From positions 1 through 43,413 of the forward strand of contig JBDKTO010000092.1 of assembly GCA_039680175.1 (NCBI GenBank): a DNA stretch of 43,413 nt, read 5' to 3'. Shown here piece by piece: positions 4,513-29,878 of this stretch. Source of the stretch: Veillonellales bacterium. Its GTDB lineage: Bacteria > Bacillota > Negativicutes > JAAYSF01. Made by a program: the position numbers and the translations under genes. Numbering within the stretch: the first letter of the stretch is position 1; the number at the start of each line of letters is the position of its first letter. The notes beneath the pieces were generated by a model. The model searched no databases, was not told the DNA's origin, and saw nothing but the letters and a program-made list of their open reading frames with translations.

Positions 4513-4654
4513 CTTCATCCTCCTTGCCAAATACTTTCTCTTTAGAATTTCCCTCTTGTCAAGGTAAAATACATGCAGAAGCAATGCAGCCGCTATAACG
4601 TTCCGGCTATTTTCTGAAATTTTTAGTAATTTATTCAAATCAGATTAGCGCAAC

Positions 4655-5645: not shown

Positions 5646-5723
5646 AACAATCCCTTCCTTCATATAAGATACTGACATGGACAGCCTTTATCTATGCCGG
5701 CGACTTACGTAAAATCCAAGCAA

Positions 5724-6698: not shown

Positions 6699-7671
6699 CG
6701 TGCCACACCCCTTCCACAAACAAATCTTCCAGTGCTTCCTCCGGTTCCGGCCAGGGACTTTCTTCCGCGTATTTCACAGCAGCTTCAATTTCAGCCGCTG
6801 CCGCCGCATCCAGAGAATCCAGTTCTGCCTGTGTCATGCTTTTGTCGGCCAGCACCTTTTCTTTGAACCGCTTAATCGGACAATTGCCTTTCTGGGCTTC
6901 CACCTCTTGTTTCGAACGATACTTTTCCGGATCACCGACAAAATGGCCCTTAATCCGGTATGTTTTCGCTTCAATAAAAGTGGGACCTAAGCCGCTTCTG
7001 GCCCGCTCTACAGCCGTTTTTGCCACTTCATAGACAGCAAATACATTATTGCCGTCCACAACGACTCCCGGAATTCCATAACCATGGGCCCGATCCGATA
7101 CGTTTTCCACATTACAGGTGGTACGATAAGGCGTTGTGGATGCATATTGATTCAGCTCCAAAACAAAAATAACCGGCAGCTTCCAGGCAGAAGCCAAGTT
7201 GACTGCTTCATGGAAAGTCCCCCGGTTAGAGGCGCCGTCGCCGAAAAAGCAGACGGCAACCTGTCCTGTTTGCCTCAATTTCGCTGCCAGTGCGGCACCG
7301 GTAGCAAGATTATAGCCGCCACCGACTACACCGTTAGCCCCCAACATGCCGATGCTGAAATCGGCAATATGCATCGAACCGCCTTTACCTTTGCAGTAGC
7401 CGGTCTTCTTGCCAAAGATCTCGGCCATCATCCGCTGAATATCCGCTCCTTTGGCAATACAGTGTCCATGCCCCCGGTGGGTGCTGGTAATTAAATCCGT
7501 TTTCGCCAGATTCGAACAAACGCCGGTAGCAATTGCCTCCTCTCCGATGTATAGGTGAATGAATCCAGGCAGGACTCCGCCGAGGAATAAATCATTTGCC
7601 TTTTCCTCAAAGTGCCGGATTCTTACCATGGTACGGTAAAAATGGGTTAACATTTCTTTGTCAAAATCCAT
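6691..7671 (-). CDS. 2-oxo acid/acetoin dehydrogenase E1 alpha subunit (set 1)
   Basis: 326 residues with RBS GGAGG ahead of the ATG at 7671. It has the E1 alpha signature: THRGHGHCIAKG, GKGGSMHI and the ThDP-Mg motif beginning FFGDGASNRGTFHE. The second half of that motif reads LELNQY where many relatives have an NN pair. The overall pattern is closest to AcoA-like acetoin dehydrogenases, but substrate specificity is not decided by these motifs. It follows the LipS-like radical SAM gene by 33 bases and overlaps the beta subunit, so the set is transcribed with the lipoate-assembly genes. Confidence 0.9.
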   Translation of the reverse strand: MDFDKEMLTHFYRTMVRIRHFEEKANDLFLGGVLPGFIHLYIGEEAIATGVCSNLAKTDLITSTHRGHGHCIAKGADIQRMMAEIFGKKTGYCKGKGGSMHIADFSIGMLGANGVVGGGYNLATGAALAAKLRQTGQVAVCFFGDGASNRGTFHEAVNLASAWKLPVIFVLELNQYASTTPYRTTCNVENVSDRAHGYGIPGVVVDGNNVFAVYEVAKTAVERARSGLGPTFIEAKTYRIKGHFVGDPEKYRSKQEVEAQKGNCPIKRFKEKVLADKSMTQAELDSLDAAAAAEIEAAVKYAEESPWPEPEEALEDLFVEGVWHDA

Positions 7672-7704: not shown

Positions 7705-8631
7705 TTAAAAATCGGTCAGTATGCCGCAGCATACTTCACGATAGGCTACGGAATAACCGCGGGATAACACATAATCCACCGTTTCTCTGGCCGGATAAGC
7801 AATGGCGGCAAATCCGGCATCCACAGCATAGCGTTCAGCTGTTCTGGCGTACTCACCCGCCGGACGGGCACATCCCAAAGCAATCGGCAGAGACGACAGC
7901 TTTTCCCTGGCGGCCTGAAATACAGCTGCCACTTTCGCTAAATCAGGCGGCGGACATTGAGCCATGTCAGTACCCGGCAACGATTTTAGGATGACCAATA
8001 CAAGACTGTCGGCTCCTTCGGCGGCAACCATATCCAGGGCAGTATACTCACCGCGAATTTCACCGTAATGCAGGCCAATCACGATATGGGGTGACGTTTT
8101 CAGCCCGGCATTCCGGGCGGCTTGCAGACTGCGGCGATAATCTTCCGGCGTCTTGTCCAGATGATAAACCTGCCGAATCGTCGCTGCATCGCCAATCAAA
8201 TCCAGCGCTACCCTGTCCACCCCCGCGTCAGCCAATATATCAGCTAACTTCGTCGTAAGCAGGCCAGGATGAACCACAACCTTTAACCCCAGCGCGCTGA
8301 CTTTCTTTAATGCTGCGCCAAACCGTTCCAGGGGAACACTGCCATCCCTGCAGGCGCCGCCGCTGACCAGAATCCCCTTGCAGCCTTCGGCGGCCAGTTT
8401 TTGCGCCTGGGCAAGCAGCAGCTCCGGCTCGGCAGCTGACAGCATGCCGGACAGCATGCTGCCGTTGCAATGAGCACAGCGGCATTGGCATTGGGTTCCG
8501 GTTACGCTGATATTGACAAAAGAGCGGGGCGTGTTGGTATAAAGGCCATTGTCATAATGCCGGGACCCGGGAGCATAAAAGACCATCTGCCGTTTTTCCG
8601 TTCCCGCCCCTGGTTCAGCAGAATGTTCCAT
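7705..8631 (-). CDS. radical SAM protein, candidate half of a LipS1/LipS2 lipoyl synthase
   Basis: About 308 residues. Radical SAM motif CQCRCAHC (C-x3-C-x2-C) near residue 48, followed by SGGACRDGS, a TIM-barrel pattern (DRVALDLIGD) and a CGILTDF tail. Start uncertain: GTG at 8646 or ATG at 8631; GGGAGGTGA lies upstream, and the gene overlaps the next radical SAM gene. In archaea and sulfur-oxidising bacteria two radical SAM proteins, LipS1 and LipS2, together insert both sulfurs into octanoyl-proteins, next to sLpl(AB) and LipT. The same four-gene set is contiguous here, which is the main basis for the call; which protein is S1 and which S2 I cannot decide. Confidence 0.75.
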   Translation of the reverse strand: MEHSAEPGAGTEKRQMVFYAPGSRHYDNGLYTNTPRSFVNISVTGTQCQCRCAHCNGSMLSGMLSAAEPELLLAQAQKLAAEGCKGILVSGGACRDGSVPLERFGAALKKVSALGLKVVVHPGLLTTKLADILADAGVDRVALDLIGDAATIRQVYHLDKTPEDYRRSLQAARNAGLKTSPHIVIGLHYGEIRGEYTALDMVAAEGADSLVLVILKSLPGTDMAQCPPPDLAKVAAVFQAAREKLSSLPIALGCARPAGEYARTAERYAVDAGFAAIAYPARETVDYVLSRGYSVAYREVCCGILTDF

Positions 8632-9730
8632 CAGCCTGATTGTCACCTCCCGCTCCCTTTATTCCCTGAAAAATCTGCCGGCGGATGAGCGCCATATCCT
8701 GACTGTTGGGAGTAACCGGGTAGTTGCGCAGTACCGGGCCCGGCCGTTCATTGCCATAAGGCCGGTTGCAGGCTGCACAGCCTGTGCTGTCGGGACAGCC
8801 GGAGGTCATAAAGGGAATACCGGCGGCGAGGTCTTCTCCCAGCAATTCGGCAATCGGCCGGCCATAGCCGACGATTTGTCCCCGATCATTATATTGAAAT
8901 GCGTTGGCAGCGATGATTTGGTGATTCAAAAGATAGATTGCCAGCTGGATTCGCCGGTATTGCCCCAGCTCAGGCGGCGCATGGTGAGCCAAAGCACTGC
9001 CCGGCTCCGGGCAAAACGAAAACAAATGAGCTTCGGCGCCGCGCCGGACAGCATTTTGAATAGCATCAACCATCTGCTGCTCGGTTTCACCCAAACCGAC
9101 GATCAGATGAATACTGACCTTGCCCCGGCCAAATACCTGCACCGCGTGATCAACGGTTCCCCAGTATTTACTCCACTGATGAGGTCCCCTTACCTGTTTC
9201 CCCCGAAACTTAGCAAAAATTTCCGGCGTTGCCGCATCGACAGCGATGCCTACCCAATCAACTCCTGCCGCTTTCAGCTGGGAAAAATAATGAATCGTAT
9301 CCGGAATCAACGTGGGAGATACTAATACGCTGACCGGTAAAGGAACAGCTTCCCGCAGCTGTTTTGCTACAGCGATGCTATCCTGTTCGGCCCGGGGATG
9401 AGTAATCATTGATATGCAAATCCGGCCGAATGATTTATGCCGCGGCGGCTGCTCCTGCTGCTGCTTTAATATGGCGGTGATTTGCGACAATGGGTATACC
9501 GGCCATTTTACCCGAATAAAAGTCTGTCCCTCCACCACTGGGGAACGTTCCCTAGCCAAACCGCAATAACTGCAGTTTGCCTTGCAGCCATCCGGATAAG
9601 TCAGCAGCAAGTTTAAACTTCCGGGATAAGCGTCCCGGTAAAACCGTCCCGGCTCCAGTCCCAGGGCCATAGCACCGGCAAGACTGGTCTGCACATATTC
9701 CGGACTTGTAAGTTGATTGACAGATGTCAT
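8615..9730 (-). CDS. biotin-synthase-like radical SAM protein, candidate second half of LipS1/LipS2
   Basis: 371 residues, start ATG 9730 with CGGAGGCG. Radical SAM motif CKANCSYCGL (near 49-58) and a second Cys cluster close to the C-terminus, CPDSTGCAACNRPYGNERPG, suited to an auxiliary Fe-S cluster that would be sacrificed as sulfur donor. It overlaps the partner radical SAM gene and follows the LipT-like gene by 30 bases. Together with its partner it should convert protein-bound octanoyl groups to lipoyl groups, as an alternative to LipA, which is also encoded in this cluster. Confidence 0.78.
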   Translation of the reverse strand: MTSVNQLTSPEYVQTSLAGAMALGLEPGRFYRDAYPGSLNLLLTYPDGCKANCSYCGLARERSPVVEGQTFIRVKWPVYPLSQITAILKQQQEQPPRHKSFGRICISMITHPRAEQDSIAVAKQLREAVPLPVSVLVSPTLIPDTIHYFSQLKAAGVDWVGIAVDAATPEIFAKFRGKQVRGPHQWSKYWGTVDHAVQVFGRGKVSIHLIVGLGETEQQMVDAIQNAVRRGAEAHLFSFCPEPGSALAHHAPPELGQYRRIQLAIYLLNHQIIAANAFQYNDRGQIVGYGRPIAELLGEDLAAGIPFMTSGCPDSTGCAACNRPYGNERPGPVLRNYPVTPNSQDMALIRRQIFQGIKGAGGDNQADGTFC

Positions 9731-9760
9731 GGTTCGCCTCCGAGATGGTACATAGTATAG

Positions 9761-10831
9761 TTACCTTCGATAATATTCTGAAAATGATATCCAGCTATGA
9801 TGAATTACGTCTGAAAAAGGCCTTTCCCCCGCTGTCCAAGCTTCATCGCGCCGTACTATCGCTTGCCGGGCCTTAGTCAGATAAATGCCGAACTCTTCCT
9901 GCAAGGCCGCTGTATATTCGGCGGCGATTTTTTCTGCCTGGTTAGGAAAATACCGCTGAATGACACCGGCTGCCAGTTCTCCGCTCCTGACTGCTGCCAT
10001 GATTCCCGCTCCGGTGATAGGATGTGCACAGCCGGCGGCATCTCCGGCCAAAAGCAAGCCGTCTCCGGCTAACCGGGCAGCCAGGCCGCCTGCCGGTATG
10101 AGCCCGGCGGTCCGGGTATGAATGGTACAGTCGGTTATGATCTGCTTGGCGGCTATTGTCTGGCAAAACCGATTGAGCCAGACTTCTAATTGACCCCGGC
10201 AGGAGGGATGCGCGGCCAAGCCTACATTCGCGTATTTCCCTTTGGGAAATATCCAGGCATAACCGCCATAAAGCCATGGTTCAAAATGAACTTCCACATT
10301 CTTCATGGGATGCGTCAATGTCATTTCATACTGCAAGGCCACGCTGGTTTCCTGCCGGGGATTTCCCAGCCACCCGGCGACGGCTGAGCGGGGTCCGTCA
10401 CAGCCGACAAGCAGGCGGCAATTAACTGTCCATTGTTTTGAACCGGACTGCAGTATCAGCTGATTATCCTGCCAATGAACCGCCCGTATTCCCAATGATA
10501 AATGCGCTCCGGCCTGAACCGCGGAATCGGCTAAGTACTTATCCCACAGACAGCGATTCAATATGTAACCGGGTGCTTTGATTTGGTTTGCCAGCACTCC
10601 CTGGATAAAGGTCCGCATCCCGTCTATCGGCTGGGCAATATCCTGAGGCCGGATTGCAGCATGCTGTTTCAGGATTCGCGGGACAAATTCGGCACATTGC
10701 ACTTTTGCCCCGACCGCGTTAACCTGATCAACCAAAAGCACCGCTAAGCCCGCCTGGGCCAGGATGCGCGCTGCCGTACTCCCCGCCGGCCCTGCGCCGA
10801 CAACTGCAGCATCGTATGTCTCTTTCAGCAT
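9761..10831 (-). CDS. lipT: FAD-dependent oxidoreductase of the geranylgeranyl-reductase family, LipT-like
   Basis: 356 residues from ATG 10831, overlapping the ligase stop by 7 bases. N-terminal FAD-binding VVGAGPAGSTAARIL with an acidic end to strand 2 (VLLVD), and the second FAD motif GDAAGCAHPITGAGI. Family members reduce isoprenoids; the subgroup named LipT is found beside sLpl(AB), LipS1 and LipS2 and is thought to serve lipoate assembly, perhaps in electron supply. The position between the ligase and the radical SAM pair fits LipT. The biochemical role remains inference. Confidence 0.72.
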   Translation of the reverse strand: MLKETYDAAVVGAGPAGSTAARILAQAGLAVLLVDQVNAVGAKVQCAEFVPRILKQHAAIRPQDIAQPIDGMRTFIQGVLANQIKAPGYILNRCLWDKYLADSAVQAGAHLSLGIRAVHWQDNQLILQSGSKQWTVNCRLLVGCDGPRSAVAGWLGNPRQETSVALQYEMTLTHPMKNVEVHFEPWLYGGYAWIFPKGKYANVGLAAHPSCRGQLEVWLNRFCQTIAAKQIITDCTIHTRTAGLIPAGGLAARLAGDGLLLAGDAAGCAHPITGAGIMAAVRSGELAAGVIQRYFPNQAEKIAAEYTAALQEEFGIYLTKARQAIVRRDEAWTAGERPFSDVIHHSWISFSEYYRR

Positions 10832-11958
10832 GACACCACAGCAGCCTTCCCGGTGATTGGCCGGCCGCCGCCTGCTTTTGCCCGTTCCACCGCCAGCCAA
10901 ACGGCAGCAATAAAATCTTCCGCCGCTACGCCGGGGATCTCCGCCGCTGAGCCGGCAAAAAAGTCATGAATCCGCCAGCTGATTATTGCCCGATCAATCG
11001 GCGTATTTTTTAAAGCGGTTTCCAGGTCATTCACCATTCTGGCCGGATAGGCAAAGAAGTCGCCGGTTATGATGACATATTTAATCACCTGAATCTTGTC
11101 ATCCAGCCGCATTTGAATCCGGATCAAACCGCCGGGCGCCTTGTAACTGGCCAAACAGTCAAGAGTATTTACGACACGGCTGTCCGTTCCGTAAATCCAT
11201 TCTTCCGACTGGATATACGGCAGACGCTTCTGAAACATTTCCTGCTCCGCCGCAGTACGTTCCCCGGGATAAAAGGTACATTTCAAGGCTTCCCGCAGCC
11301 CGGATAATACCGCCTGCTTGATATCCCTGTGAGCGGGAATATATCCCAGCTGCTTATGCAGAGAAGTCACCCGCTCATCCATGGAGCGAATGGCTTTATC
11401 ACTCATTTTTTCCACAGGAAAGCGCAACGCTTTTACCATTTCCCGGATATCAAAATCAACTAACAGACTGCATTGAAACATGAAGGAATGATTTAATTCC
11501 GTTCCGCCGCTGCCGGCTATCTTTTGACCTTTAATTTCAATATCATTAAAAGGACGATACGCAGCCGCCAATCCCAGTTTTTGTAGTCCTTTAGCAGTCC
11601 CTTCCAGCAAAAGGCGGTACATATCTTCCACCTTCCGGGGAATCCCCGGCGTATTTTTGGCGGCATGCAGCGACCAGCCTAATTCCAGCGGTCCCCAATA
11701 CAAGCTGCCGCCTCCGGTAATTCTCCGGTTAATATCCAAGCCATGTTCCCGGCAATAAGGAACATTTACTTCCAAATAAACATTTTGATGCCGTCCTACC
11801 AGAGTGCAGGGCTTAAATTGGAGAAAACGCAGCGTATTGGGAATCAACCCTTCGCTATGAGCCTTCACAATGACTTCGTCCAACGCCATATGCTCCGCTG
11901 CTGTAAACGGCGCCGAATCCAGCACCCGGAAGGCGAGATCTTGCTGCGGCTTAGGCAT
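10825..11958 (-). CDS. sLpl(AB)-type lipoate/octanoate-protein ligase
   Basis: 377 residues. The catalytic domain carries RRITGGGSLYWG (78-89) and NDIEIKGQKIAGSGG with Lys146 as the conserved acyl-adenylate lysine of the LplA/LipB/BirA fold. The C-terminal third corresponds to the LplB accessory part and ends in a small-ligase-like extension. It probably attaches octanoate or lipoate to the lysine of the GcvH-like proteins. The next gene downstream is LipT-like, and the upstream gene (overlap of 8 bases) encodes a GcvH-like protein; this is the known order of the sLpl(AB)-LipS pathway. Confidence 0.85.
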   Translation of the reverse strand: MPKPQQDLAFRVLDSAPFTAAEHMALDEVIVKAHSEGLIPNTLRFLQFKPCTLVGRHQNVYLEVNVPYCREHGLDINRRITGGGSLYWGPLELGWSLHAAKNTPGIPRKVEDMYRLLLEGTAKGLQKLGLAAAYRPFNDIEIKGQKIAGSGGTELNHSFMFQCSLLVDFDIREMVKALRFPVEKMSDKAIRSMDERVTSLHKQLGYIPAHRDIKQAVLSGLREALKCTFYPGERTAAEQEMFQKRLPYIQSEEWIYGTDSRVVNTLDCLASYKAPGGLIRIQMRLDDKIQVIKYVIITGDFFAYPARMVNDLETALKNTPIDRAIISWRIHDFFAGSAAEIPGVAAEDFIAAVWLAVERAKAGGGRPITGKAAVVSC

Positions 11959-12364
11959 CTTGTTTCAGTTCCTCCGTCAGCCAGTCCGACAACTGGTTTA
12001 TCGTCATAAGCTCAGTCATATCCAGGGATTCGCTCGGCTCAATCTCGGCAAACCAGTTGGAATAGGGCGATTTGCCGATACTGCCGGGTTGCTTGACAAC
12101 TTCATCATTCACCTGGACAATCCGGCCGCTGACGGGAGCGTAAATACGTCCGACCCATTTGCCCGCTTCCAGCGAGCCGCAGCCGCTGCCTTTTTCCACT
12201 ACCGCTCCTGCCTCCGGCAGCGCTAGATACAGCACATCGCCGGTTATCGCCAAACCGTAAGGTGTTAAGCCAAAACGTATTTTGTTGTCCAGATTGGCTA
12301 TCCACTGATTATGCCGGTCATACAGCAAATCTTCGGGAAAGTCCCAATCGCCAATTCTTACCAT
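11951..12364 (-). CDS. GcvH-like lipoyl carrier protein (divergent copy)
   Basis: 137 residues from ATG 12364 (AAGGAGTTGGAG upstream; a TTG at 12376 is the alternative). Lipoylation motif SLEAGKWVGRIYAPVSG with Lys69. It shares fold and length with the two near-identical GcvH-like proteins of this cluster but is clearly divergent, so it probably has a different partner. Being directly upstream of and overlapping the sLpl(AB)-type ligase, it resembles the lipoate-binding proteins (LbpA) paired with that ligase in sulfur oxidisers. No sHdr genes are seen here, so a sulfur-oxidation role is not supported. Confidence 0.82.
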   Translation of the reverse strand: MVRIGDWDFPEDLLYDRHNQWIANLDNKIRFGLTPYGLAITGDVLYLALPEAGAVVEKGSGCGSLEAGKWVGRIYAPVSGRIVQVNDEVVKQPGSIGKSPYSNWFAEIEPSESLDMTELMTINQLSDWLTEELKQDA

Positions 12365-12404
12365 GATGTACTCCAACTCCTTACTCTAAATCATTATCAG
12401 CCGG

Positions 12405-13574
12405 CTAATCTTCTACTGCCATCCATAAAAGTTCAGTCACATCCATAACCTGCAAGGGAATTTTCTCTTTCCGGGCTGCCTTTTCCAGCATCTGTTCGCA
12501 CTGCTGGCAGGCCGACACGAGAATATTCGCCTTTGTTTCCGCCGCTTCCGCGATTCGCTTACCGGCAATGGCATCCGCCAGTTTGCTGTCAGCTCCCTGA
12601 AGATTGCCGCCGCCGCCGCAGCAGGTGGAATCCATACCGTGGGTAGGCATCTCCACAAAGGTAATGCCCGGTATACTGCGGATAATCTGACGCGGCGGCT
12701 CAAACACCCCGCTGTTGCGTCCCAAATCGCAGGGATCGTGATAAGTTACTGTTTCTTCCAGTTCGTTAGGCACCAGCCGTCCCGCCTGCAGAAGTTCTGC
12801 CAGATACTCGGTGACGTGAGCCACCCGGAATCCCAGTTCTTTCCCCATAATCTTCGGATAAACATGGCTCCAGGTATGGTAACAGGAAGAGCAGCTGGTA
12901 ACCAAAGTCTTGATTCCCATTTTTTGTATCGTTTCCACATTATGCCGGACAAATTCTTCTATTTCCCCAGCGGCTCCCGCTGCCAGCAGAGGAAAGCCGC
13001 AGCACCATTCTTCCCCGCCCATGGTGGTGAAATTCACTTCGGCTTTCTGCAGCAGTTGGACTACGGCAACCGGAATCTGCGCTGCCCGGGGAAAAAAGGA
13101 GGATACGCAGCCGACAAAATACGCCACCTCAGCCCCCGGCTCCTGATCCAGGTTTTCCGGCACTTCGTCCATATCTTCCGCCCAGTCCAGCCGGGTAACA
13201 TTAGCAAAATTAGTAATATTTTTTTTATCCTTTAAGTTTGATACAATGGCAGTATACGCTTGCGGTGCCACTCCCTGCTCCACCAGCTTGCCGCGCAGTT
13301 CCTGCCAGAAAGTCTGCAAATCAATTCTGGCCGCACAATTTTTCGTACAGGCGCCGCACATGGTACATTGGGTGATCCGTTTGGCAAATTCGGGGCTGAT
13401 CTTATCTCTTTGCTGCCGGGCGAAGATTTCTCTTGCCTGAGAAATCTTTCCCCGGGGCGTCGCCGATTCCCAGCCGATTTCCCTGAATGTGGGACATTCG
13501 GAACGGCAGCTGCCACATCGTCCGCAAATCAGGGATTCTTCGGCTAATGTTTTATAAAAGCTGTTTGCACTCAT
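12405..13574 (-). CDS. GlcF/HdrD-like iron-sulfur oxidoreductase with two CCG domains
   Basis: 389 residues. Two [4Fe-4S] motifs at the N-terminus (CGRCGSCRSECP near 17 and CTMCGACTKNCA near 70), then two cysteine-rich CCG domains: CVSSFFP, EWCCGFP, CSSCYHTW and CDLGRNSG, STCCGGGGN, CQQCEQML. This is the layout of glycolate oxidase GlcF, lactate-utilisation LutA/LldE relatives and the heterodisulfide reductase subunit HdrD. CCG domains can hold a noncubane cluster that reduces disulfides. The start overlaps the GlcD-like gene by 4 bases, so the two act as a pair. Sitting between two lipoyl-carrier genes, it is a candidate for re-oxidising dihydrolipoyl groups. Confidence 0.87.
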   Translation of the reverse strand: MSANSFYKTLAEESLICGRCGSCRSECPTFREIGWESATPRGKISQAREIFARQQRDKISPEFAKRITQCTMCGACTKNCAARIDLQTFWQELRGKLVEQGVAPQAYTAIVSNLKDKKNITNFANVTRLDWAEDMDEVPENLDQEPGAEVAYFVGCVSSFFPRAAQIPVAVVQLLQKAEVNFTTMGGEEWCCGFPLLAAGAAGEIEEFVRHNVETIQKMGIKTLVTSCSSCYHTWSHVYPKIMGKELGFRVAHVTEYLAELLQAGRLVPNELEETVTYHDPCDLGRNSGVFEPPRQIIRSIPGITFVEMPTHGMDSTCCGGGGNLQGADSKLADAIAGKRIAEAAETKANILVSACQQCEQMLEKAARKEKIPLQVMDVTELLWMAVED

Positions 13575-15022
13575 GCCTGACTCCTCCCTTTGTAGAACAA
13601 TCTGGTTGCTGCCAGTAAATCCATGCCGATATTATAAAACGGCGGCGTCAAAAACAGCGGGGACTGATACAGTTTGCCAGGATTCATAATATTGAGAGGA
13701 TCAAGCTGCTGCTTGCGGCGGCGCAATTCCGCCAGCTGGCTTTTATTGTAACTGCGATGCAGGTAAGGCGTGTTCCACAGGCCAGTACCGTAAGGCGATG
13801 CGCCATATCGGGCGCCGATGTCATGCAGTTTCTTTACCAGAGCCAAGCCCTGCAAATATCCTACCGTATCCCGTTCGTCGGCATTAAACATCGTCATAAT
13901 CATAACGTGGCTGGAAGTAACGACATGACCATAGGTTTTCAGGCCCAGATGCTGACTGTTATCATAGTCTGCGGCGGATTGCAGATAAGCTGCCAGCTTG
14001 TTAATCGGCAGCAGCAATTCAGCGCCCAGCAGAGAAGGTGCTTCCCGTTTTAACAGCAGCGAAAAAAAGCGGTTTTCCCATTCTTCCGCCGCCGCTTCAC
14101 TTCGATCAGCGGCACCTGCTGCCGACAAGCATTCGAAGTATCCTTTTCTGGCAGCTTCGGTGGCCGCTTTTGTTCCATCGGCGTCAAAGGCAACCGTATA
14201 GACCTGAGATGCCTCTTTATCGGCCATTCCATGGCGATAACGCAGGGCGTTACACTCCGGATCACTGAAATGGAGATTAAAGGGCAGACTGGGCAATTGA
14301 ACAACCTGCTCAATAAACCGCTGTGTATCCGCGGCATTGGCGCATTCGGCCAAGCCGTGCCATTCCTGCTCCGGCAGCGGCCGGACTCTGAGCTCGATTT
14401 CCGTCATAAGCCCTAAAGTTCCTTCCGATCCGGCCAGCCAGGAAAGCGGAACCTTGCTGGTTGTTGTCAGATTCTGAACGCTGCCGTCCGGCAATACTGT
14501 CCGGGCGCCAATCACCTGATTGATCAACGGGCCGAATTTCAGACTGCCGATCCCATAGCCCATCATGGCCAGCCAGCCGCCGACTGTCGCCGCCGGTGCA
14601 CTGCTGGGATAGGAGCAGACCGACAATTCCTGCCGATTCAAGTCCCGCTCCAAATCTCTCCAGACCGTACCGGCCGCCACCTTGACGGTATTATTTCCCC
14701 CGTCGACTGAGCGCAACCCTTTCAGTTCATTCATATCCAGTAAAATTCCGTTTTTAGCACATACGGTATTAAAGTATACGGTTGAGCCGCCCGCCCGACC
14801 GGTAACCGGAATCCGTTCCTGAGCTGCCATTTTTACAATTGCCGCTACTTCTTCCACGCTGTTGGGCCGTACCACAATATCGGGCATGGTCTTGGCCATC
14901 GGATTGACCAGGAAATCGGGAACAGGCGCCAAATCCCGTTCATAGAACTGTCGTTCAAATAATTCGTCGGTAGCGCGTTCGCCCAGCATTTCTTTTAATG
15001 ACTGACATACTTTGGCGCTCAT
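13571..15022 (-). CDS. GlcD-like FAD-binding oxidase
   Basis: 483 residues from ATG 15022, which has GGAGGA upstream. It has the FAD_binding_4 (VAO/PCMH) fold: PVTGRAGGSTVYFNT, TVGGWLAMMGYGIGSLKFGP and AGSEGTLGLMTEIEL, followed by a FAD-oxidase C-terminal domain with the family-typical tail RRRKQQLDPLNIMNPGKLY. Relatives oxidise 2-hydroxy acids (glycolate, D-lactate) and hand electrons to a GlcF-like protein, which is the adjoining gene. Here the pair is enclosed by lipoyl-carrier and ligase genes. It may oxidise a hydroxy acid for the pathway, or act as the flavin unit of an E3 substitute; the sequence does not decide. Confidence 0.88.
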   Translation of the reverse strand: MSAKVCQSLKEMLGERATDELFERQFYERDLAPVPDFLVNPMAKTMPDIVVRPNSVEEVAAIVKMAAQERIPVTGRAGGSTVYFNTVCAKNGILLDMNELKGLRSVDGGNNTVKVAAGTVWRDLERDLNRQELSVCSYPSSAPAATVGGWLAMMGYGIGSLKFGPLINQVIGARTVLPDGSVQNLTTTSKVPLSWLAGSEGTLGLMTEIELRVRPLPEQEWHGLAECANAADTQRFIEQVVQLPSLPFNLHFSDPECNALRYRHGMADKEASQVYTVAFDADGTKAATEAARKGYFECLSAAGAADRSEAAAEEWENRFFSLLLKREAPSLLGAELLLPINKLAAYLQSAADYDNSQHLGLKTYGHVVTSSHVMIMTMFNADERDTVGYLQGLALVKKLHDIGARYGASPYGTGLWNTPYLHRSYNKSQLAELRRRKQQLDPLNIMNPGKLYQSPLFLTPPFYNIGMDLLAATRLFYKGRSQA

Positions 15023-15042
15023 AAAATCCTCCTTCTTCTGGC

Positions 15043-15462
15043 TTATTCCGGTTTCGCGTGCTTTGCTTCTTCTTCGGCAAAGAATTTTTCCGCTGTTTCG
15101 CCATGCAGCAATGTTCCCAGACTGCCGGCCAGATCTGCCGGTTCCATAACGCAAATCCAGCCTTCGCCATAACAGTCGTCATTCAACAGTTTGGGGTTCG
15201 TGGTGAGAGCCGAATTCGATTCAAGAACTTTTCCATTCATGGGAACCTTCAGTTTGCCGGCCCATTTTCCTGACTGGATGGAGCTTAAAGTAGCACCGGC
15301 TGCCAATGTTTTTCCCACCCGGGGAACACGAATAAAGGTGATTTCTCCCGCCAGCTGCTGCATAAAATCGCTGATGCCAATGCGAACATTATTTCCTTCC
15401 ACTTTGATCCAGGCATGATCTTCCGTATAATAAAGTTCCTGAGGAATAACATATTTTGACAT
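15043..15462 (-). CDS. GcvH-like lipoyl carrier protein (second copy)
   Basis: 139 residues from ATG 15462 with AAGGAGG upstream. Same features as the copy at 4093-4512: YYTEDHAWI, FMQQLAGEITFIRVP and Lys66 in SIQSGKWAGK. Only about six substitutions separate them, and the last ten residues are identical. It lies 14 bases after the LplA-like ligase and 20 bases before the GlcD-like gene, which suggests that this ligase loads it and the GlcD/GlcF pair uses it. Confidence 0.86.
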   Translation of the reverse strand: MSKYVIPQELYYTEDHAWIKVEGNNVRIGISDFMQQLAGEITFIRVPRVGKTLAAGATLSSIQSGKWAGKLKVPMNGKVLESNSALTTNPKLLNDDCYGEGWICVMEPADLAGSLGTLLHGETAEKFFAEEEAKHAKPE

Positions 15463-15476
15463 TTTAATCCTCCTTG

Positions 15477-16523
15477 CTAGATACCTGTCAGTATCCATTG
15501 CATTAATAATTTATGGTCTAACCCCGGCAATTTGCCGCAATGATCTTTTTCCCACTGCTGCAATGCCTTTTCGATTGCATCTTCCTGCCAGGGAATTTCT
15601 TGCATATACGGTGCCAAAGGTATGATTTTCGCCTGCTGCAAGCAGGCAATATTATGGGTTTCGAAGTGGCTGATCCGATGATTTTTTATCTGTATAATTG
15701 CCCACCCTTCGCCGCTGTCGTCCGCATACCGGTGCAGCCGTAAATATACGTTTTCTTTAATTTTCACTTGTCTCGACCGCTGCCTTTTGCCAGGCAGCTG
15801 CAAAAACTCCCGTGATGTAAGTCGCAGGGCAATCTTCTCTGTCATATTTTCCAGTTCCGGAAAATACACCCCTGACTCCAGTTCCGGCAGCCAGGCTTTA
15901 AAATGGTCCAGCAGCCTGCTTTCGACCGCAGCCACATCCGGCTGATAGCCCAGTTCTTCGCTTAAAGTAGTCATGTACTGCTCCATAGACTGCCGGGCCG
16001 ATTTGCGAAACTCTTCGCAGGGCACCTGCAGCACATCGGCCATTGTATCCCGGTCAAAACCGATTAAAATATTGCCGATATAGACGGCATAGCCGTTAAT
16101 GTCGCCGGCACCGTTGCCGGAAATTTTCCGGCCATTCACTACAATATCCGCCGGCGGCTGAATGGCGGCACTGAGACCAAAGTCCCGCAAAGCCGCAACT
16201 GCCGGTGCCAAAAATTGTTGAAAAAATTGATCTCGCCGGCCTTTCAGCAACGGATTGCTTCTATGTAAAATCAATTGGAAGAAAATTTGATTTTGATCCA
16301 GCAGCACCATACCCCCACCCGTCTCGCGGCGGATGAGGGGAATGGCTTGCTGCTGACAAAAATCAATATTTACTTCTTCTTTAAGATCGTCATGAAACCC
16401 AAGACACACATAACGCTGAGCCGGACGGCAAAATATGAGTCCCTCCCGGCCGACTTCCGCCAAAGCATGATAGACAGCCTGAGTTTGCTGCCAGGGCAGC
16501 ACCCCCAGGCGATACAGCATCAT
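15477..16523 (-). CDS. lipoate-protein ligase A family protein
   Basis: 348 residues. Carries RRETGGGMVLLD (65-76) and DIVVNGRKISGNGAG with Lys133, the signature of lipoate/octanoate ligases, and a C-terminal domain of about 100 residues. It is clearly different from the sLpl(AB)-type ligase at 10825-11958, so the cluster has two ligases as well as LipB. It overlaps the AhpD-like gene start-to-stop by 4 bases and precedes the second GcvH-like gene, its likely target. LplA salvage ligase or LipL-like amidotransferase are alternatives. Confidence 0.85.
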   Translation of the reverse strand: MMLYRLGVLPWQQTQAVYHALAEVGREGLIFCRPAQRYVCLGFHDDLKEEVNIDFCQQQAIPLIRRETGGGMVLLDQNQIFFQLILHRSNPLLKGRRDQFFQQFLAPAVAALRDFGLSAAIQPPADIVVNGRKISGNGAGDINGYAVYIGNILIGFDRDTMADVLQVPCEEFRKSARQSMEQYMTTLSEELGYQPDVAAVESRLLDHFKAWLPELESGVYFPELENMTEKIALRLTSREFLQLPGKRQRSRQVKIKENVYLRLHRYADDSGEGWAIIQIKNHRISHFETHNIACLQQAKIIPLAPYMQEIPWQEDAIEKALQQWEKDHCGKLPGLDHKLLMQWILTGI

Positions 16524-16864
16524 TTCTTCTCAAAAGCATCCAAACATTCTTCGACTAACGTAGCACAATATGCTGTTGTGGGTGAACCGCCGAAGGCTAC
16601 TGCCAGAGTAGCCGCCTCCAGAATTTCATCCCGGTTTGCCCCTACTTCCAAGGATTTAAAAACATGAAAAGCAATGCAATATTCACAACGGGCATAGGCA
16701 GCGATAGCCAATGCCATTAGTTCTTTGTATTTCGCCGGAATTTCCCCTTCAATAAAACAAGCATTAGTAATATTAACAAATGCAGCGGCTACTTCCGGTG
16801 TATCCTTGCCTAATTTTCCTAAACCTGCCTGAAAGTCATTCAATAATTTGCGTGGATCTGCCAT
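16520..16864 (-). CDS. AhpD/carboxymuconolactone decarboxylase-family protein
   Basis: 114 residues from ATG 16864, GAGGAGGAA upstream. Conserved E..C60-EYC63-AFH67 is the redox-active CxxC plus histidine of AhpD-like proteins, in the all-helical CMD fold. In Mycobacterium, AhpD takes electrons from the lipoyl group of dihydrolipoamide acyltransferase, which gives this protein a sensible role here: thiol-disulfide exchange with lipoyl carriers or detoxification of peroxides. It stands between lipA and the LplA-like ligase in the same operon. Confidence 0.85.
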   Translation of the reverse strand: MADPRKLLNDFQAGLGKLGKDTPEVAAAFVNITNACFIEGEIPAKYKELMALAIAAYARCEYCIAFHVFKSLEVGANRDEILEAATLAVAFGGSPTTAYCATLVEECLDAFEKK

Positions 16865-16892: not shown

Positions 16893-17768
16893 TTATTGTC
16901 GGCGGGAACCCGCCAAAACCTGTTGATATGCTTCACGGGCGTAATACGAGCTTCGTACCAGCGGATTGGCAACAACAACCTTAAAACCGATTTTTAAACC
17001 GATGCGGCGATACTCCTCAAATTCCTTGGGTGTTACATAACGTTCCATGGGAATATGAGCGGCGGAAGGCCGTAAGTATTGTCCAAGAGTTAAAATATCA
17101 CAGCCGGCACGGTTGAGATCTTCCATCACTTTGGTAACTTCGCCAACGCTTTCCCCTAATCCCAGCATCATGCCGGATTTGGTAATCATCTTCGGATCAA
17201 TCTTTTTAACTGTTGCAAACAGGTCGACAGAACGCTGGTAATCCGCCTCAGGCCGTACCCGGCTGTACAAAGCGGGTACGGTTTCCACATTGTGATTCAG
17301 CACACTGGGCCGCGCTGCCACGACAACAGCCAAAGCAGCCTCGCTGCCGGCTAAATCCGGTATCAACACTTCAATAGCAGCATCCGGTACTTTATGATAA
17401 ACCGACTGCAGAACCGCCGCATAATGGCCGGCTCCGCCATCGGGCAAATCATCCCGGGTGACTGAAGTAATTACAATGTATTTTAAACCAAGAGTCTGAA
17501 CCGCTTCAGCCAGATTGTCCGGCTCCGCCGGGTCGGGCCGGCCGGGAATGCCATGATGAACGGCGCAAAACCGGCAATTGCGGGTACAGACATCTCCCAG
17601 AATCATGAAGGTGGCTGTCTGATGCCCAAAGCACTCTCCCACATTGGGACACTGGGCGCTTTCGCATACGGTATGCAAATCCAGCCGATCCATCAGCATT
17701 TTAATTTGCTGCATTTTTGCCGCATCGGGACTTTTAATCTTCAACCACTCAGGCCTTACTGCTTCCAT
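16893..17768 (-). CDS. lipA: lipoyl synthase
   Basis: 291 residues. Auxiliary-cluster motif C35-x4-C40-x5-C46 (CESAQCPNVGEC), radical SAM motif CTRNCRFC (61-68) and the C-terminal RSSY motif whose serine ligates the auxiliary cluster. Inserts two sulfurs into octanoyl groups on lipoyl domains. The start overlaps the end of lipB by 20 bases. It is the canonical counterpart of the LipS-like radical SAM pair in the same operon. A lipA homologue (acoS) is also known inside acetoin dehydrogenase clusters of Pelobacter. Confidence 0.97.
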   Translation of the reverse strand: MEAVRPEWLKIKSPDAAKMQQIKMLMDRLDLHTVCESAQCPNVGECFGHQTATFMILGDVCTRNCRFCAVHHGIPGRPDPAEPDNLAEAVQTLGLKYIVITSVTRDDLPDGGAGHYAAVLQSVYHKVPDAAIEVLIPDLAGSEAALAVVVAARPSVLNHNVETVPALYSRVRPEADYQRSVDLFATVKKIDPKMITKSGMMLGLGESVGEVTKVMEDLNRAGCDILTLGQYLRPSAAHIPMERYVTPKEFEEYRRIGLKIGFKVVVANPLVRSSYYAREAYQQVLAGSRRQ

Positions 17769-18426
17769 TTTCGCCGCTCCTTACCGGTACGATTTTTACC
17801 TCAAATACTTCAGCGAATTTTTCAATCACCTGCCGGCAAATTTCATTCCGGCTCACCGTCACGCCGAAATATTCCATACTGGCTACCGGACGATCAGTGA
17901 TACCGCAAGGATTAATCATGCTGAAATGCTGCATGTTAGGACGAACATTCAGGGCAAATCCATGCATAGACACCCAGCCTTTCACACCAACACCAATAGC
18001 AGCGATCTTCCCTTGCTCTGTCCAGACACCGGTAAGCCCCTTTTCACGAAAGCCTTCAATACCATACTCGCTGACGGTACGGATAATCACCTCTTCCAGT
18101 TGGCGTACATAACGGTGCATATCCCGGCCGTGCTTGGTCAAATCCAGGATGGGATAACATACCACCTGGCCCGGACCGTGATAGGTAACATCACCGCCGC
18201 GGTCCACATCATAAACGGAAATATTTTCCGTTTTCAGGACAGAGTCATCTACTTTGATATTGGTATGGCTGCCGGCCCGGCCAACGGTAAACACCGGATC
18301 ATGCTCCAGCAGAATCAGACTGTCTTCAATTTCCCCTTTTCGCCGCTGAGCAACCATTTTCAGCTGCATCTCCCAGGCAGCCGGATAGGGAATGCGTTTC
18401 AGGTTCAGTAGGCAGACTTGTTTCAT
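17749..18426 (-). CDS. lipB: octanoyl-ACP:protein N-octanoyltransferase
   Basis: 225 residues. RGGDVTYHGPGQ (76-87), Lys140 in GKIAAIGV and the catalytic Cys174 in MINPCGI are all present. Transfers octanoate from ACP to lipoyl domains, giving the substrate for LipA. It starts two bases after the E2 stop codon, so E2 and its modifying enzymes are made together. Confidence 0.97.
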   Translation of the reverse strand: MKQVCLLNLKRIPYPAAWEMQLKMVAQRRKGEIEDSLILLEHDPVFTVGRAGSHTNIKVDDSVLKTENISVYDVDRGGDVTYHGPGQVVCYPILDLTKHGRDMHRYVRQLEEVIIRTVSEYGIEGFREKGLTGVWTEQGKIAAIGVGVKGWVSMHGFALNVRPNMQHFSMINPCGITDRPVASMEYFGVTVSRNEICRQVIEKFAEVFEVKIVPVRSGENGSSKA

Positions 18427-18428
18427 CG

Positions 18429-19760
18429 TTATAATAGTATGCTCATCGGATCTTCTAAATAGCCTTTAATGCATTTCAGGAATTTAGCTGCCTGGGCACC
18501 GTCCAGGATGCGATGATCGAAGGATAAACTCAAGGTCATCATTGAGGCGATCACAATTTCGTCCTTCACAACCACCGGTTTTTTGATAATGCGGCCAACC
18601 CCTAAAATTGCGCTTTCCGGCTGATTAATAACCGGGGTAAAGCCGTCTACATCGTAGCCGCCTAAATTACTGATGGTAAAGGTACCACCGCTTAACAAAT
18701 CCAGGCTCAGCTTATTGCTGCGGGCATTGTCGGCATTTTCCTTGCATCTGGCATGAATTTCTTTCAAGCCGCATTTATCGGCATTGCGCAGTACAGGAAC
18801 CAAAAGCCCGTTATCTAAAGCAACTGCTATACCAATATTGATGTCTTCATGTTTTACGACCGCATTATCGACGATAGAAGCGTTTACCATGGGGAAGTGC
18901 CCCAGAGCAGCAGCCACCATCTTGGTCAGAATATCGGTATAGGTGAAATGCACATCCGTATTATTGGCATTCAGTTCTTTTCTGAATTTTACCGTGGCAT
19001 CCACATTAATTTCGGTCATCAGGGTAACGTGCGGTGCGGTATGTTTACTTGCTGTCATGCGCTCGGCAATAACCTTACGCATGCCTACAAGGGGTTCTCC
19101 TGTTTTAGCTGCTGCCGGAGCGGGCTTGGCAGCCGGTGCCTGAGGAGCGGGAGCTGCTGCAGCTGCCGGTGCTTTCGCAGCCTTTTGCACGTCTTCTTCC
19201 ACAATCCGGCCTTCCGGACCGGTGCCGGCCACTTTGGCAAGATCAACTCCTAATTCGGCGGCAATTTTCTTGGCCAAAGGAGATGCTTTCACCCGTCCGC
19301 CTGCTTTAGGCGCAGTAAGCAGATATTTTTCCACATCAGCTGTCACGATCCGGCCTTCCGGACCGGAACCGGGCACTGCCTGAATATCAATCCCATTTTC
19401 TTCCGCCATTCTTTGGGCAGCCTTGGAGAATTTCGCTTCTTTCTTAGCTGCGGGAGCAGCCGCGGTAGCAGGCGCGCCGGCAGGAGCCGCAGCCGCGGCA
19501 CCGGGCTCGGCAATTTTTTCGTCGGCCGTACCGATAATGCACAGCAGTCCCTGTACCGGGATGGTTTCGCCCTCTTTGGCGGCAATGACCCGCAATATTC
19601 CGGCGGCATTCGATTCCACTTCGCTGGTAATTTTATCGGTCATAATCTCAACCAGGGCTTCGCCTTCTGCTACCGAGTCGCCAATCTGCTTTTTCCATTG
19701 TCCGATTGTTCCCTCGGTCATGGTTAATCCCAATTGAGGCATCTTAATTTCTGTAGCCAT
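18429..19760 (-). CDS. 2-oxo acid/acetoin dehydrogenase E2 (dihydrolipoamide acyltransferase)
   Basis: 443 residues. Lipoyl domain 1-78 with Lys43 in EIMTDKITSE; Ala/Pro linker; two successive peripheral-subunit-binding domains (about 110-147 and 157-194, each ending GPEGRIV..DV); a second Ala/Pro linker; catalytic acyltransferase domain from about 222 with FDHRILDG (His416). Most E2 chains have one such binding domain. It forms the core that accepts the acyl group from E1. It follows E1 beta set 2 by 27 bases. No E3 gene is found anywhere in the window although two binding domains are kept, so E3 is encoded elsewhere or replaced. Confidence 0.95.
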   Translation of the reverse strand: MATEIKMPQLGLTMTEGTIGQWKKQIGDSVAEGEALVEIMTDKITSEVESNAAGILRVIAAKEGETIPVQGLLCIIGTADEKIAEPGAAAAAPAGAPATAAAPAAKKEAKFSKAAQRMAEENGIDIQAVPGSGPEGRIVTADVEKYLLTAPKAGGRVKASPLAKKIAAELGVDLAKVAGTGPEGRIVEEDVQKAAKAPAAAAAPAPQAPAAKPAPAAAKTGEPLVGMRKVIAERMTASKHTAPHVTLMTEINVDATVKFRKELNANNTDVHFTYTDILTKMVAAALGHFPMVNASIVDNAVVKHEDINIGIAVALDNGLLVPVLRNADKCGLKEIHARCKENADNARSNKLSLDLLSGGTFTISNLGGYDVDGFTPVINQPESAILGVGRIIKKPVVVKDEIVIASMMTLSLSFDHRILDGAQAAKFLKCIKGYLEDPMSILL

Positions 19761-19787: not shown

Positions 19788-20765
19788 TTATTTCCCCAGT
19801 ATTTCCTTTACGCCTGTGACAATATCCTTCGGATTGGGATAAATAAGATCCTCAAGCGCCGGGCTGAAAGGCGGAATTACATTCAGACCCGCAACCCGTT
19901 TCACCGGTGCATCTAATTCATCAAAAGCACCCTCCATGATTTGAGCCGAAATTTCTCCTGCATAGCCGCAGCGTTTCGGTGCCTCCTGAACAATTACGAC
20001 CCGGTGGGTCTTCTTAATTGATGCCTCAATCGTCTCCCAATCGAGAGGAACCAACGTCCTAAGATCGATGACTTCGGCGTCAATTCCTTCATCCGCCAAT
20101 TCCTTCGCCGCCTGCAAGGCAAAAGTAACCTGACGGGAATACGCGATGATAGTTACGTCCTTGCCGGCACGCTTTACATCTGCTTTTCCCAGCGGAATGA
20201 TGTATTCTTCCTCCGGTACCTCTCCCTTGCCGGCATAAAGCAGTTTATGTTCAATAAACATAATCGGGTCATCATCGCGAATGGCCGCTTTTAACAGACC
20301 TTTAGCATCATACGGCGTTGCCGGTGCAACTACTTTTAACCCCGGTATGTGAGTAAACAAAGATTCCAAACTTTGCGAATGCTGACCGGCATTTCGGCGT
20401 CCTGCGCCTTCCGGCGCCCGAATGACCATCGGAACCTTAACTTGTCCGCCTGTCATATACCGCATTTTGGCCGCCTGATTAATAATCGGATCAAAACAAA
20501 CACTGGTAAAGTCAACATACATTAACTCGGCTACCGGACGCATTCCCCTTATTGCCGCACCAACCGACATGCCGATAAAGCCGGATTCAGAGATTGGCGT
20601 ATCAATTACGCGGTTTTCACCGAACTCATCGCGAAATCCTTTCGTCAAACCAAAGACACTGCCCATAATTCCCATATCTTCGCCAAGAATAAAAACATTT
20701 TCATCCCGGACCATTTCTTCATGCATGGCTTCGCTGATAGCCTTCCCGTAAGTAATCTTTCTCAT
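19788..20765 (-). CDS. 2-oxo acid/acetoin dehydrogenase E1 beta subunit (set 2)
   Basis: 325 residues, MRKITYGKAI start, GEDMGIMGSVFG, IDTPISESGF, AGQHSQSLE and C-terminal VIVQEAPKRCG. Overlaps E1 alpha set 2 by 4 bases (ATG within the stop region) and is followed by E2. It is a clear paralogue of the set 1 beta subunit but not a recent copy, which suggests different substrates or regulation. AcoB-like; the exact substrate is not set by sequence. Confidence 0.93.
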   Translation of the reverse strand: MRKITYGKAISEAMHEEMVRDENVFILGEDMGIMGSVFGLTKGFRDEFGENRVIDTPISESGFIGMSVGAAIRGMRPVAELMYVDFTSVCFDPIINQAAKMRYMTGGQVKVPMVIRAPEGAGRRNAGQHSQSLESLFTHIPGLKVVAPATPYDAKGLLKAAIRDDDPIMFIEHKLLYAGKGEVPEEEYIIPLGKADVKRAGKDVTIIAYSRQVTFALQAAKELADEGIDAEVIDLRTLVPLDWETIEASIKKTHRVVIVQEAPKRCGYAGEISAQIMEGAFDELDAPVKRVAGLNVIPPFSPALEDLIYPNPKDIVTGVKEILGK

Positions 20766-21757: not shown

Positions 21758-21761
21758 TGTA

Positions 21762-23961: not shown

Positions 23962-23978
23962 TGTTCGTTTTAAGAACA
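23962..23978. promoter_or_regulatory. candidate upstream activator site
   Basis: TGTTC-N7-GAACA is a perfect dyad about 190 bases upstream of the predicted sigma-54 start, overlapping the stop codon of the activator gene. It shares its half sites and 7-base spacing with the dyads at 23882-23906 and 4661-4685. A shorter palindrome, TTGTTCGACAA, lies at 23943-23953. Binding by the neighbouring activator is inference. Confidence 0.5.
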
Positions 23979-27931: not shown

Positions 27932-27932
27932 A

Positions 27933-29777: not shown

Positions 29778-29878
29778 CGCTCCACCTCTTTTCCCATAAA
29801 ATATATACTTATTTTTAGCCTTCGACATAGGTTGGTGAATCCCTTTAAAATTCCATTTCCCCTGTTTTACCTCACAGC

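Follow-up and report, generated by a model that had tools for sequence, protein, structure and literature searches.

In the window, a 43,413-nucleotide stretch of DNA from a Veillonellales bacterium, a GlcD-like flavoprotein and a CCG-domain Fe-S protein are encoded amid genes for lipoyl carriers, lipoate ligases and E1-E2 complexes. Judged from sequence comparisons, there is slightly better than an even chance that this pair is a dihydrolipoyl-protein oxidase module. The E3 subunit (Lpd), normally regarded as what oxidises dihydrolipoyl proteins, ties their complexes to NAD+. A non-homologous replacement of Lpd, in which a Zn-less GlcD and an HdrB-like CCG protein, fed by AhpD, would oxidise dihydrolipoyl E2 and GcvH-like carriers while bypassing NAD+, is put forward tentatively and falls somewhat short of an even chance. 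Since the hydroxy-acid active site is gone and the neighbours of the pair are constantly lipoate-carrying, the GlcD-CCG route, shared by a group of anaerobic bacteria, is probably a means of withdrawing electrons from lipoate that has not been described before.

If true, a second conserved route would change the picture of where the electrons of acetoin, butanediol and 2-oxo acids go in acetogens and syntrophs, which would send the electrons of 2-oxoacid and acetoin dehydrogenases to quinone or another non-NAD acceptor. Widespread GcvH-like “orphan” carriers outside sulfur oxidation would also gain a function. The module would further make it practicable to test for an action of CCG clusters on lipoyl disulfides attached to proteins, a question with a bearing on what LbpA does in the sHdr pathway.

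The locus and its conserved linkage

The glcD-like and CCG genes overlap by 4 bp (12405-15022, minus strand; Table 1). Their Pfam domains bear out the preliminary description of the interval, and gene calls together with GCV_H and LplA-B_cat matches agree with its statement that GcvH-like and ligase genes flank the pair: GcvH-like genes bracket it directly, and the two lipoate-ligase genes lie beyond them. The E1 alpha/beta pairs and E2 belong to the same minus-strand gene run. The attachment lysine is present in the lipoyl motifs of both bracketing carriers (SGKWAG in carrier a, AGKWVG in carrier b), and the third GcvH-like gene shares 85% DNA identity with carrier a over 443 bp.

Table 1. 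Features of the window, with the evidence for each assignment
Feature	Position	Strand	Size or start	Basis
GlcD-like FAD protein	13571..15022	-	483 aa	Pfam FAD_binding_4 + FAD-oxidase_C
CCG Fe-S protein	12405..13574	-	389 aa	Pfam CCG x2, Fer4_8
GcvH-like lipoyl carrier a	15043..15498	-	probable start 15462	Pfam GCV_H 118 bits; alignment
GcvH-like lipoyl carrier b	11951..12376	-	probable start 12364	Pfam GCV_H 98 bits; alignment
Third GcvH-like gene	4093..4638	-		GCV_H; near-copy of carrier a
AhpD-family dithiol protein	16520..16864	-		Pfam CMD, TIGR00778; motif E-x11-CxxC-xxx-H
Lipoate-protein ligase-like protein 1	15477..16523	-		LplA-B_cat
Lipoate-protein ligase 2, sLpl(AB)-like	10825..11958	-		LplA-B_cat + Lip_prot_lig_C; NF053751, NF053749 below cut-off
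LipT-like geranylgeranyl-reductase-family flavoprotein	9761..10900	-		TIGR02032 above cut-off; LipT per PMC10332631
LipS2-like lipoyl synthase subunit	8615..9730	-		NF053743, 223 bits vs cut-off 270
LipS1-like lipoyl synthase subunit	7705..8646	-		NF053742, 218 bits vs cut-off 230
LipA-like lipoyl synthase	16893..17768	-		Named from translation; recurs in syntenic loci
LipB-like octanoyltransferase	17749..18426	-		Named from translation; recurs in syntenic loci
E2 acyltransferase	18429..19760	-		Pfam: lipoyl domain, two E3-binding (PSBD) domains, catalytic domain
E1 beta	19788..20765	-		NF006667 above cut-off
E1 alpha	20762..21814	-		TIGR03182, 370 bits vs cut-off 394
Second E1 beta	5724..6719	-		NF006667 above cut-off
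Second E1 alpha	6691..7671	-		TIGR03182, 365 bits vs cut-off 394
2-hydroxy-3-oxopropionate reductase / 3-hydroxyisobutyrate dehydrogenase family protein	4761..5678	-		NF008592, 302 bits vs cut-off 397
DhaR/AcoR-type sigma-54 activator, head of gene run	23970..25943	-		NF008485, below cut-off

The linkage of GlcD, CCG and GcvH-like genes exceeds chance: a GcvH-like gene lies within 9 kb of GlcD in 30 of 38 module loci, compared with 0 of 51 GlcD-type genes outside the module, sampled from the genomes that carry it (p=1.4e-14 by Fisher test against the 40 GlcDs with intact GDGN, the loci not being independent). GlcD and gcvH can also be neighbours outside the module: a long Zn-type GlcD gene, not among the sampled controls, divergently adjoins the canonical gcv operon on another contig of the genome (C71). 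The module GlcDs form one group in the tree (91/97 support; 94% of bootstrap trees), which extends over Negativicutes, Syntrophomonadaceae, other Bacillota, Syntrophaceae, Desulfoluna and Chloroflexi. No description of a GlcD-CCG-GcvH-AhpD module was found in the published literature searched, subscription papers lying outside its reach; the nearest remark concerns Sporomusa, where lipS1/S2 are linked to genes of canonical lipoate synthesis (PMC10332631).

LipS1 occurs within 9 kb in 24 of the 38 loci and LipS2 likewise in 24, as would suit a lipoate-assembly factor that passes electrons to or from LipS1/LipS2, or sets the redox state of the carriers during maturation. Such a role is quite improbable: LipS genes are not nearby in L061 and L064/L065, the second lipS1/S2 locus of the genome, on C71, has no module-type pair beside it, the other E2 operon of the genome (C19) has the pair but neither lip nor GcvH genes, and LipT is already a published candidate donor (PMC10332631).

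An altered flavoprotein and its Fe-S partner

The AF2 model of the window GlcD (pLDDT 87.5) has the fold of D-lactate dehydrogenase and LctD. Like the module, the D-2-hydroxy-acid dehydrogenases GlcD/GlcF and LctD combine this FAD_binding_4 and FAD-oxidase_C fold (LctD 7qh2, mLDHD) with a CCG partner gene. In contrast to them, however, the window protein has its Zn/catalytic hydroxy-acid site replaced by PY (410-411) and WN (416-417), and carries a conserved C-terminal tail of about 30 residues with a predicted helix. Throughout the aligned module GlcDs, Glu is exchanged for Pro (37/37), His for Tyr (35/37) and the second Zn-ligating His for Met (30/37), and GDGN occurs in none of the 37. The motifs HxGDGNxH and (G)EHG are absent from all 37 module sequences and present in 40 of 40 canonical GlcDs of the same genomes, in which the Zn/catalytic residues are intact. 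The pair also stays far below the NCBIfam equivalog cut-offs (GlcD, 120.8 vs 567.9 bits; GlcF, 59.1 vs 333 bits), a weak criterion, since the canonical GlcD controls also fall just under theirs. Neither protein matches the lipoamide_DH model of pyridine-nucleotide-disulfide oxidoreductases.

These changes weaken the plain alternative of the preliminary description, namely a GlcD/GlcF-type 2-hydroxy-acid dehydrogenase that supplies the 2-oxo acid of E1, with Lpd serving in trans as E3. The retained fold, the lpd gene elsewhere in the genome, and a sugar-acid-type transporter and GarR-like gene in the window operon speak for this alternative, yet we consider it unlikely, as the Zn ligands and catalytic His are lost group-wide. 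Moreover, five module genomes lack any E2, and in four of them GcvH lies beside the pair, which thus need not feed an E1. From what is known of acoXABCL, the E1 of AcoX-type operons probably uses acetoin directly, and no hydroxy-acid oxidation would be needed.

Loss of the Zn site alone is no proof of a lipoyl role, since other Zn-less GlcD-CCG relatives (L066, L067), with a related PYGxGxN motif, lie in non-lipoyl clusters with no lipoyl carrier nearby. Together with the VAO/GlcD-type flavin fold retained in the GlcD subunit, these relatives would fit a Zn-less GlcD that oxidises another small molecule, the lipoyl pathway being coupled via metabolites rather than dithiols. This is rather unlikely given the company of the pair: it is found in acetoin-type operons, at GcvH loci that stand alone and in a molybdopterin-oxidoreductase-like cluster, and what stays with it throughout is lipoyl carriers and ligases rather than a single metabolic pathway.

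The CCG protein contains two 4Fe-4S ferredoxin motifs and two complete five-Cys CCG motifs (C156, 191, 192, 228, 231 and C282, 318, 319, 356, 359), whose ten Cys are set in an HdrB-like fold and are invariant in alignments. Its structural model resembles EtfD, LutA and HdrB; the closest solved structure is EtfD of M. smegmatis (9ojn; Z 34.7, rmsd 3.1 over 377 residues), and VIA-align hits of about Z 8 or less, to racemases and periplasmic binding proteins, were excluded as background. EtfD differs in being a larger single protein of 1042 residues, and to our knowledge has no GlcD-type flavoprotein as its partner. Among NCBIfam models, TfrB of CoM/CoB fumarate reductase scores best but does not reach its cut-off. 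The CCG domain had been advanced as an argument for dithiol/disulfide chemistry. As proof of such chemistry we rejected the cysteine pattern: its 18 Cys recur in every one of the 35 canonical GlcF-type partners encoded by these genomes, and are therefore not diagnostic.

lpd and its position in E1-E2 operons

The missing E3 of the preliminary description holds for the window, where the sole lpd-model match is a 36-residue FAD-motif stretch in the LipT-like gene, but not for the genome. The proposed genome search returned one bona fide lpd on C71 (14638-15987; 531 bits, cut-off 408.8), next to gcvT-H-PA-PB, lipS1/S2 and a lipM-like gene, and the product of this gene could act in trans on module E2s. 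The first five further module genomes to be searched have lpd as well, and it scores over cut-off in 17 of 19 module genomes searched. One exception, G140 (97% complete), combines the module with a full gcvT-H-PA-PB set yet lacks a bona fide Lpd; in the other, G249 (85% complete), lpd is matched in part at a contig start, so that only G140 is informative on lpd absence. At one locus (L085) an Lpd-family gene adjoins the module. Lpd-like genes near GlcD in L061, L062 and L083 were rejected as E3, as they match lipoamide_DH only partially and NirB or CoA-disulfide-reductase-type flavoproteins fit better.

Within E1-E2 operons, the GlcD-CCG pair holds the lpd position. An lpd gene lies within 8 kb of E2 in 1 of 25 module operons, compared with 20 of 35 other E2 operons (p=1.8e-5); for GlcD, CCG, AhpD and GcvH by E2, the count among these 35 non-module operons is zero. 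Both E2 genes of the genome sit with GlcD-CCG and neither with lpd. The C19 operon reads E1a-E1b-AcoX-E2-AhpD-GlcD-CCG, and two control AcoX operons read E1a-E1b-AcoX-E2-Lpd. The E1a-E1b-AcoX-E2 order of acoXABCL is thus found in the C19 paralogue, as it is in most Sporomusa and Syntrophomonas loci, whereas AcoL (E3) is replaced by AhpD ... GlcD-CCG in module operons. AcoX lies between E1 and E2 in C19 and most homologous operons, but not in the window operon. For the Zn-alcohol dehydrogenase of several loci, considered as a butanediol dehydrogenase, there was no NCBIfam match over a cut-off.

AhpD is usual in module E2 operons and is fused to E2 in three loci (L057-L059). Its motif E-x11-C-x2-C-x3-H is found in the window protein and in 12 of 13 others, the exception (L054) being masked there. 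Module E2s retain the E3-binding domain, in two copies in the window E2 according to Pfam. This domain of E2 can also bind E1.

A candidate electron path and related systems

The lipoyl partners, the lpd position and the lost hydroxy-acid site make the oxidation of dihydrolipoyl carriers, as suggested in the preliminary description, the best-fitting reading of these sequences. The electron source would be lipoyl groups in their reduced state, borne by E2 and by the presumably lipoylated GcvH-like carriers. Electrons would probably reach the CCG Fe-S protein by way of AhpD, a CxxC protein that is itself a probable member of the relay, and would pass from the CCG/4Fe-4S clusters of the Fe-S protein to the FAD of the GlcD-like subunit, to exit to a non-NAD+ acceptor, most likely menaquinone or another flavoprotein. 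We infer each of these steps, their direction, the order of the carriers and the acceptor. The module would thereby do the E3 job for the E1-E2 complexes of its own operons, the single Lpd of the genome probably being left to glycine cleavage. Because five module genomes have no E2, E3 replacement cannot be its whole function.

The reactions are reversible in principle, and the CCG proteins of CoM/CoB fumarate reductase and heterodisulfide reductase run in either direction. Still, it is very improbable that the pair works in reverse and reduces lipoyl proteins as donors, e.g., to AhpD/peroxiredoxin or reductive metabolism: the E1-E2 reaction itself reduces the lipoyl group, so an oxidant is needed, and a peroxiredoxin gene was not recognised in the operons.

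The CoM/CoB (thiol) fumarate reductase TfrAB and HdrDE likewise possess a CCG Fe-S subunit, which exchanges electrons with thiols/disulfides; that of TfrAB passes thiol electrons to a flavoprotein. The flavoprotein of the module, in contrast, is GlcD-type and not FrdA-type, and the proposed substrate is protein-bound lipoyl. The sHdr-LbpA system with its sLpl(AB)-LipS1/S2-LipT assembly also combines a CCG (HdrB-like) protein with GcvH-like carriers, and shares the lipoate-assembly genes of the module (PMC6067878; PMC10332631). The module, however, has a GlcD-type flavoprotein instead of HdrA, and is linked to E1/E2 and AhpD; no HdrA/B/C-like shdr genes were recognised among the window ORFs. 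LbpA has two conserved Cys near its N- and C-termini (PMC6067878), and since the carrier alignment has no such columns, the module carriers were rejected as LbpA.

AhpD, a known acceptor from dihydrolipoyl E2, had been left out of the preliminary description. In the mycobacterial Lpd-DlaT-AhpD-AhpC chain, AhpD receives its electrons from the dihydrolipoyl form of E2, DlaT (PMC12028322), as proposed here. In the module, by comparison, AhpD is an operon partner of E2 or fused to it, and the proposed electron target is CCG/GlcD instead of AhpC.

The gene pair and its lipoyl neighbourhood

The preliminary description had named a GlcD-like flavoprotein gene and a gene for a CCG-domain Fe-S protein, and both are borne out in domain content and position. 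The two genes overlap by 4 bp and sit within a single long same-strand gene run of the window. This run begins with genes for a sigma-54 activator, an MFS transporter, a DUF296-like protein, E1 alpha/beta, E2, LipB, LipA, AhpD and ligase 1, continues with GcvH-like a, GlcD, CCG, GcvH-like b and ligase 2, and closes with LipT, LipS2, LipS1, a second E1 pair, a GarR-like protein and a third GcvH-like protein. The last gene is a duplicate of carrier a (85% DNA identity over 443 bp). Elsewhere in the window, an asparagine synthase gene, its product seemingly shortened at the C-terminus, overlaps at its 3' end with a large serine recombinase gene; a mobile element may have inserted there.

Coordinates of the gene pair and of other features, by locus
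Feature	Locus	Position	Strand
GlcD-like FAD protein, 483 aa	window	13571-15022	-
Fe-S/CCG protein, 389 aa	window	12405-13574	-
Third GcvH-like gene	window	4093-4638	
Serine recombinase/asparagine synthase genes	window	765-3927	
MfrABE-like three-gene set	window	26115-29900	
E1a-E1b-AcoX-E2-AhpD-GlcD-CCG operon	L017 (G000:C19:14000-33900)	9179-16481	
GlcD-type protein, 953 aa	L016 (G000:C71)	34-2895	
E2-AhpD fusion	L057	14321-15910	
E2-AhpD fusion	L058	3296-4876	
E2-AhpD fusion	L059	11278-12861	
Zn-less GlcD-CCG relatives	L066	8694-11312	
Zn-less GlcD-CCG relatives	L067	8990-11629	
Lin0512_fam and DUF6506 proteins	L069	1537-1902, 7470-7769	
G140 locus	L062 (G140:C53)		
G140 locus	L282 (G140:C42)		

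Homologous pairs occur in Pelosinus and five Sporomusa records, including S. ovata, as well as in Syntrophomonas and other Syntrophomonadaceae, Peptococcaceae, Thermoanaerobacteraceae, Smithella and other Syntrophaceae, Desulfoluna limicola and Chloroflexi MAGs. Of 38 such module loci, 37 have a CCG gene next to GlcD or close by, 31 a ligase gene near GlcD, 30 a GcvH-like gene within 9 kb and 25 an E2 gene. Other GlcD-type genes of the same genomes mostly have a CCG neighbour too (46/51), and none of the 51 has GcvH, ligase, E2 or AhpD nearby. Because the loci are related by descent and some of the contigs are short, the p value for module linkage (1.4e-14) overstates independence. In the tree, the lipoyl-linked GlcDs cluster as a single group (support 91/97). 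Outside the 51-gene sample stands one exception to the lack of GcvH near other GlcDs: on contig C71 of the source genome, a gene whose GlcD-type product is 953 aa long and has a Zn-type EHG motif is divergent from the adjoining canonical gcv operon, which carries the genome's only lpd. The small proteins Lin0512_fam and DUF6506 recur at many loci and may belong to the module operons, and at L064 and L065 GlcD-CCG-GcvH-ligase clusters without E1/E2 lie beside what look like methionine-salvage genes.

Active site of the GlcD-like protein

The GDGN motif of 40 canonical GlcDs is found in none of 37 module GlcDs. The Zn glutamate position is Pro in all 37, the catalytic His position Tyr in 35 and the second Zn His position Met in 30, where the Zn ligands and base are those we take over from D2HGDH/LDHD structures. 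W150, G155, H222, W416, N417 and other residues are fixed. In the model (pLDDT 87.5) the D-lactate dehydrogenase/LctD fold is kept; the protein thus has the GlcD fold, whereas with the Zn and catalytic residues lost its hydroxy-acid chemistry is probably gone. The whole module group also has about 30 C-terminal residues following NPGK, a tail predicted to contain a helix and missing from most canonical GlcDs; that it contacts the membrane is a guess.

The structures closest to the CCG model are those of EtfD (Z 34.7), LutA (Z 26.1) and, with Z about 22-23, HdrB; the ferredoxin motifs fall in a lower-confidence region of the model. Dithiol/disulfide chemistry of CCG proteins had been offered as an argument for the pair oxidising lipoyl carriers, but it does not discriminate, because the 18 cysteines kept in the module protein are shared by 35/35 canonical partners.

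Loss of the Zn site is, however, not confined to lipoyl clusters: the relatives at L066 and L067 carry a PYGxGxN motif in what looks like a carbamate kinase/FdrA cluster with a radical SAM gene and no lipoyl carrier genes. At L045 and L052, a Zn-less GlcD (PYGLGIWN motif) is fused to a ferredoxin-type Fe-S region in an ORF of >600 aa.

Lpd, AhpD and lipoyl carriers

The E3 described as missing is absent locally and present in the genome: a genome search found one bona fide lpd (531 bits) on C71, adjoining gcvT-H-PA-PB, a second lipS1/S2 and a lipM-like gene. The genome's only two E2 genes, in the window and on contig C19, both lie beside a GlcD-CCG pair and neither beside lpd. The C19 operon is pared down the most, with no GcvH, ligase, Lip gene or lpd; its GlcD and CCG proteins are 60% and 74% identical to those of the window. 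In two control AcoX operons of the same phylum (L250, L267), with AcoX at the same place, Lpd directly follows E2.

Outside the module, lpd lies within 8 kb of E2 in 20 of 35 E1-linked E2 operons from the phylum, and none of the 35 has GlcD, CCG, AhpD or GcvH. Among 25 module E2 operons, a single one (L085) has an Lpd-family gene, and no AhpD was found there. AhpD was detected in 22, and in L055 and L088 the ORF caller may have missed it, as an opposite-strand ORF covers its place. In alignments of three loci the E2 C-terminus is fused to AhpD; Pfam assigns lipoyl, E3-binding, acyltransferase and CMD domains to the L058 protein. In Mycobacterium, dihydrolipoyl E2 gives electrons to AhpD (PMC12028322). 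This precedent and the AhpD genes and fusions make a relay from E2 via AhpD to CCG/GlcD plausible, in an order that we infer.

Five genomes (G145, G353, G124, G204, G140) have the pair and no E2 gene, and in four of them GcvH lies beside it; what the pairs have in common is therefore the lipoyl carrier and not E1/E2, and in these genomes a different reaction must supply the reduced carriers. G140 harbours a complete gcvT-H-PA-PB and the module but lacks a bona fide Lpd, which would fit a pair able to stand in for Lpd; its assembly is 97% complete but split into about 110 contigs. Next to the module at L062 of this genome lie a NirB/CoA-disulfide-reductase-like flavoprotein, ferredoxin-like proteins and a molybdopterin-oxidoreductase-like protein.

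A candidate route for dithiol electrons

In the proposed mechanism, E1 and its substrate would reduce the E2 lipoyl group, AhpD or a GcvH-like carrier would accept the dithiol electrons, and the CCG protein would oxidise the dithiol; by way of its 4Fe-4S clusters the electrons would reach the FAD of GlcD and, from there, quinone or another protein. Alternatively, Lpd could act in trans as E3 for the module E2, which retains E3-binding domains; such domains can bind E1 too, which qualifies this evidence. Because of this alternative, the retained domains and the Zn-less relatives elsewhere, we lean only slightly towards a dihydrolipoyl-protein oxidase; the module linkage and the active-site loss are much firmer. 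If dihydrolipoyl oxidation holds, the pair would amount to a non-homologous substitute for E3.

The open literature searched holds no description of the GlcD-CCG-lipoyl combination, the parts of which are known. The module shares its logic with sHdr-LbpA (a CCG protein, a GcvH-like carrier and LipS1/S2 assembly), whereas its carriers fail the LbpA cysteine test; it is best filed among CCG-lipoyl redox systems, as a variant.

Lipoamide lies at about -0.29 V (PMC6067878). With an acceptor other than NAD, the step would stay favourable at high NADH/NAD+. Upstream of the operon, a quinol-linked fumarate reductase-like set resembles MfrABE (8-methylmenaquinol:fumarate reductase); all three genes fall below equivalog cut-offs, and the flavoprotein seems to carry a Tat signal. 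This set suggests a quinone pool and makes a menaquinone-type acceptor plausible.
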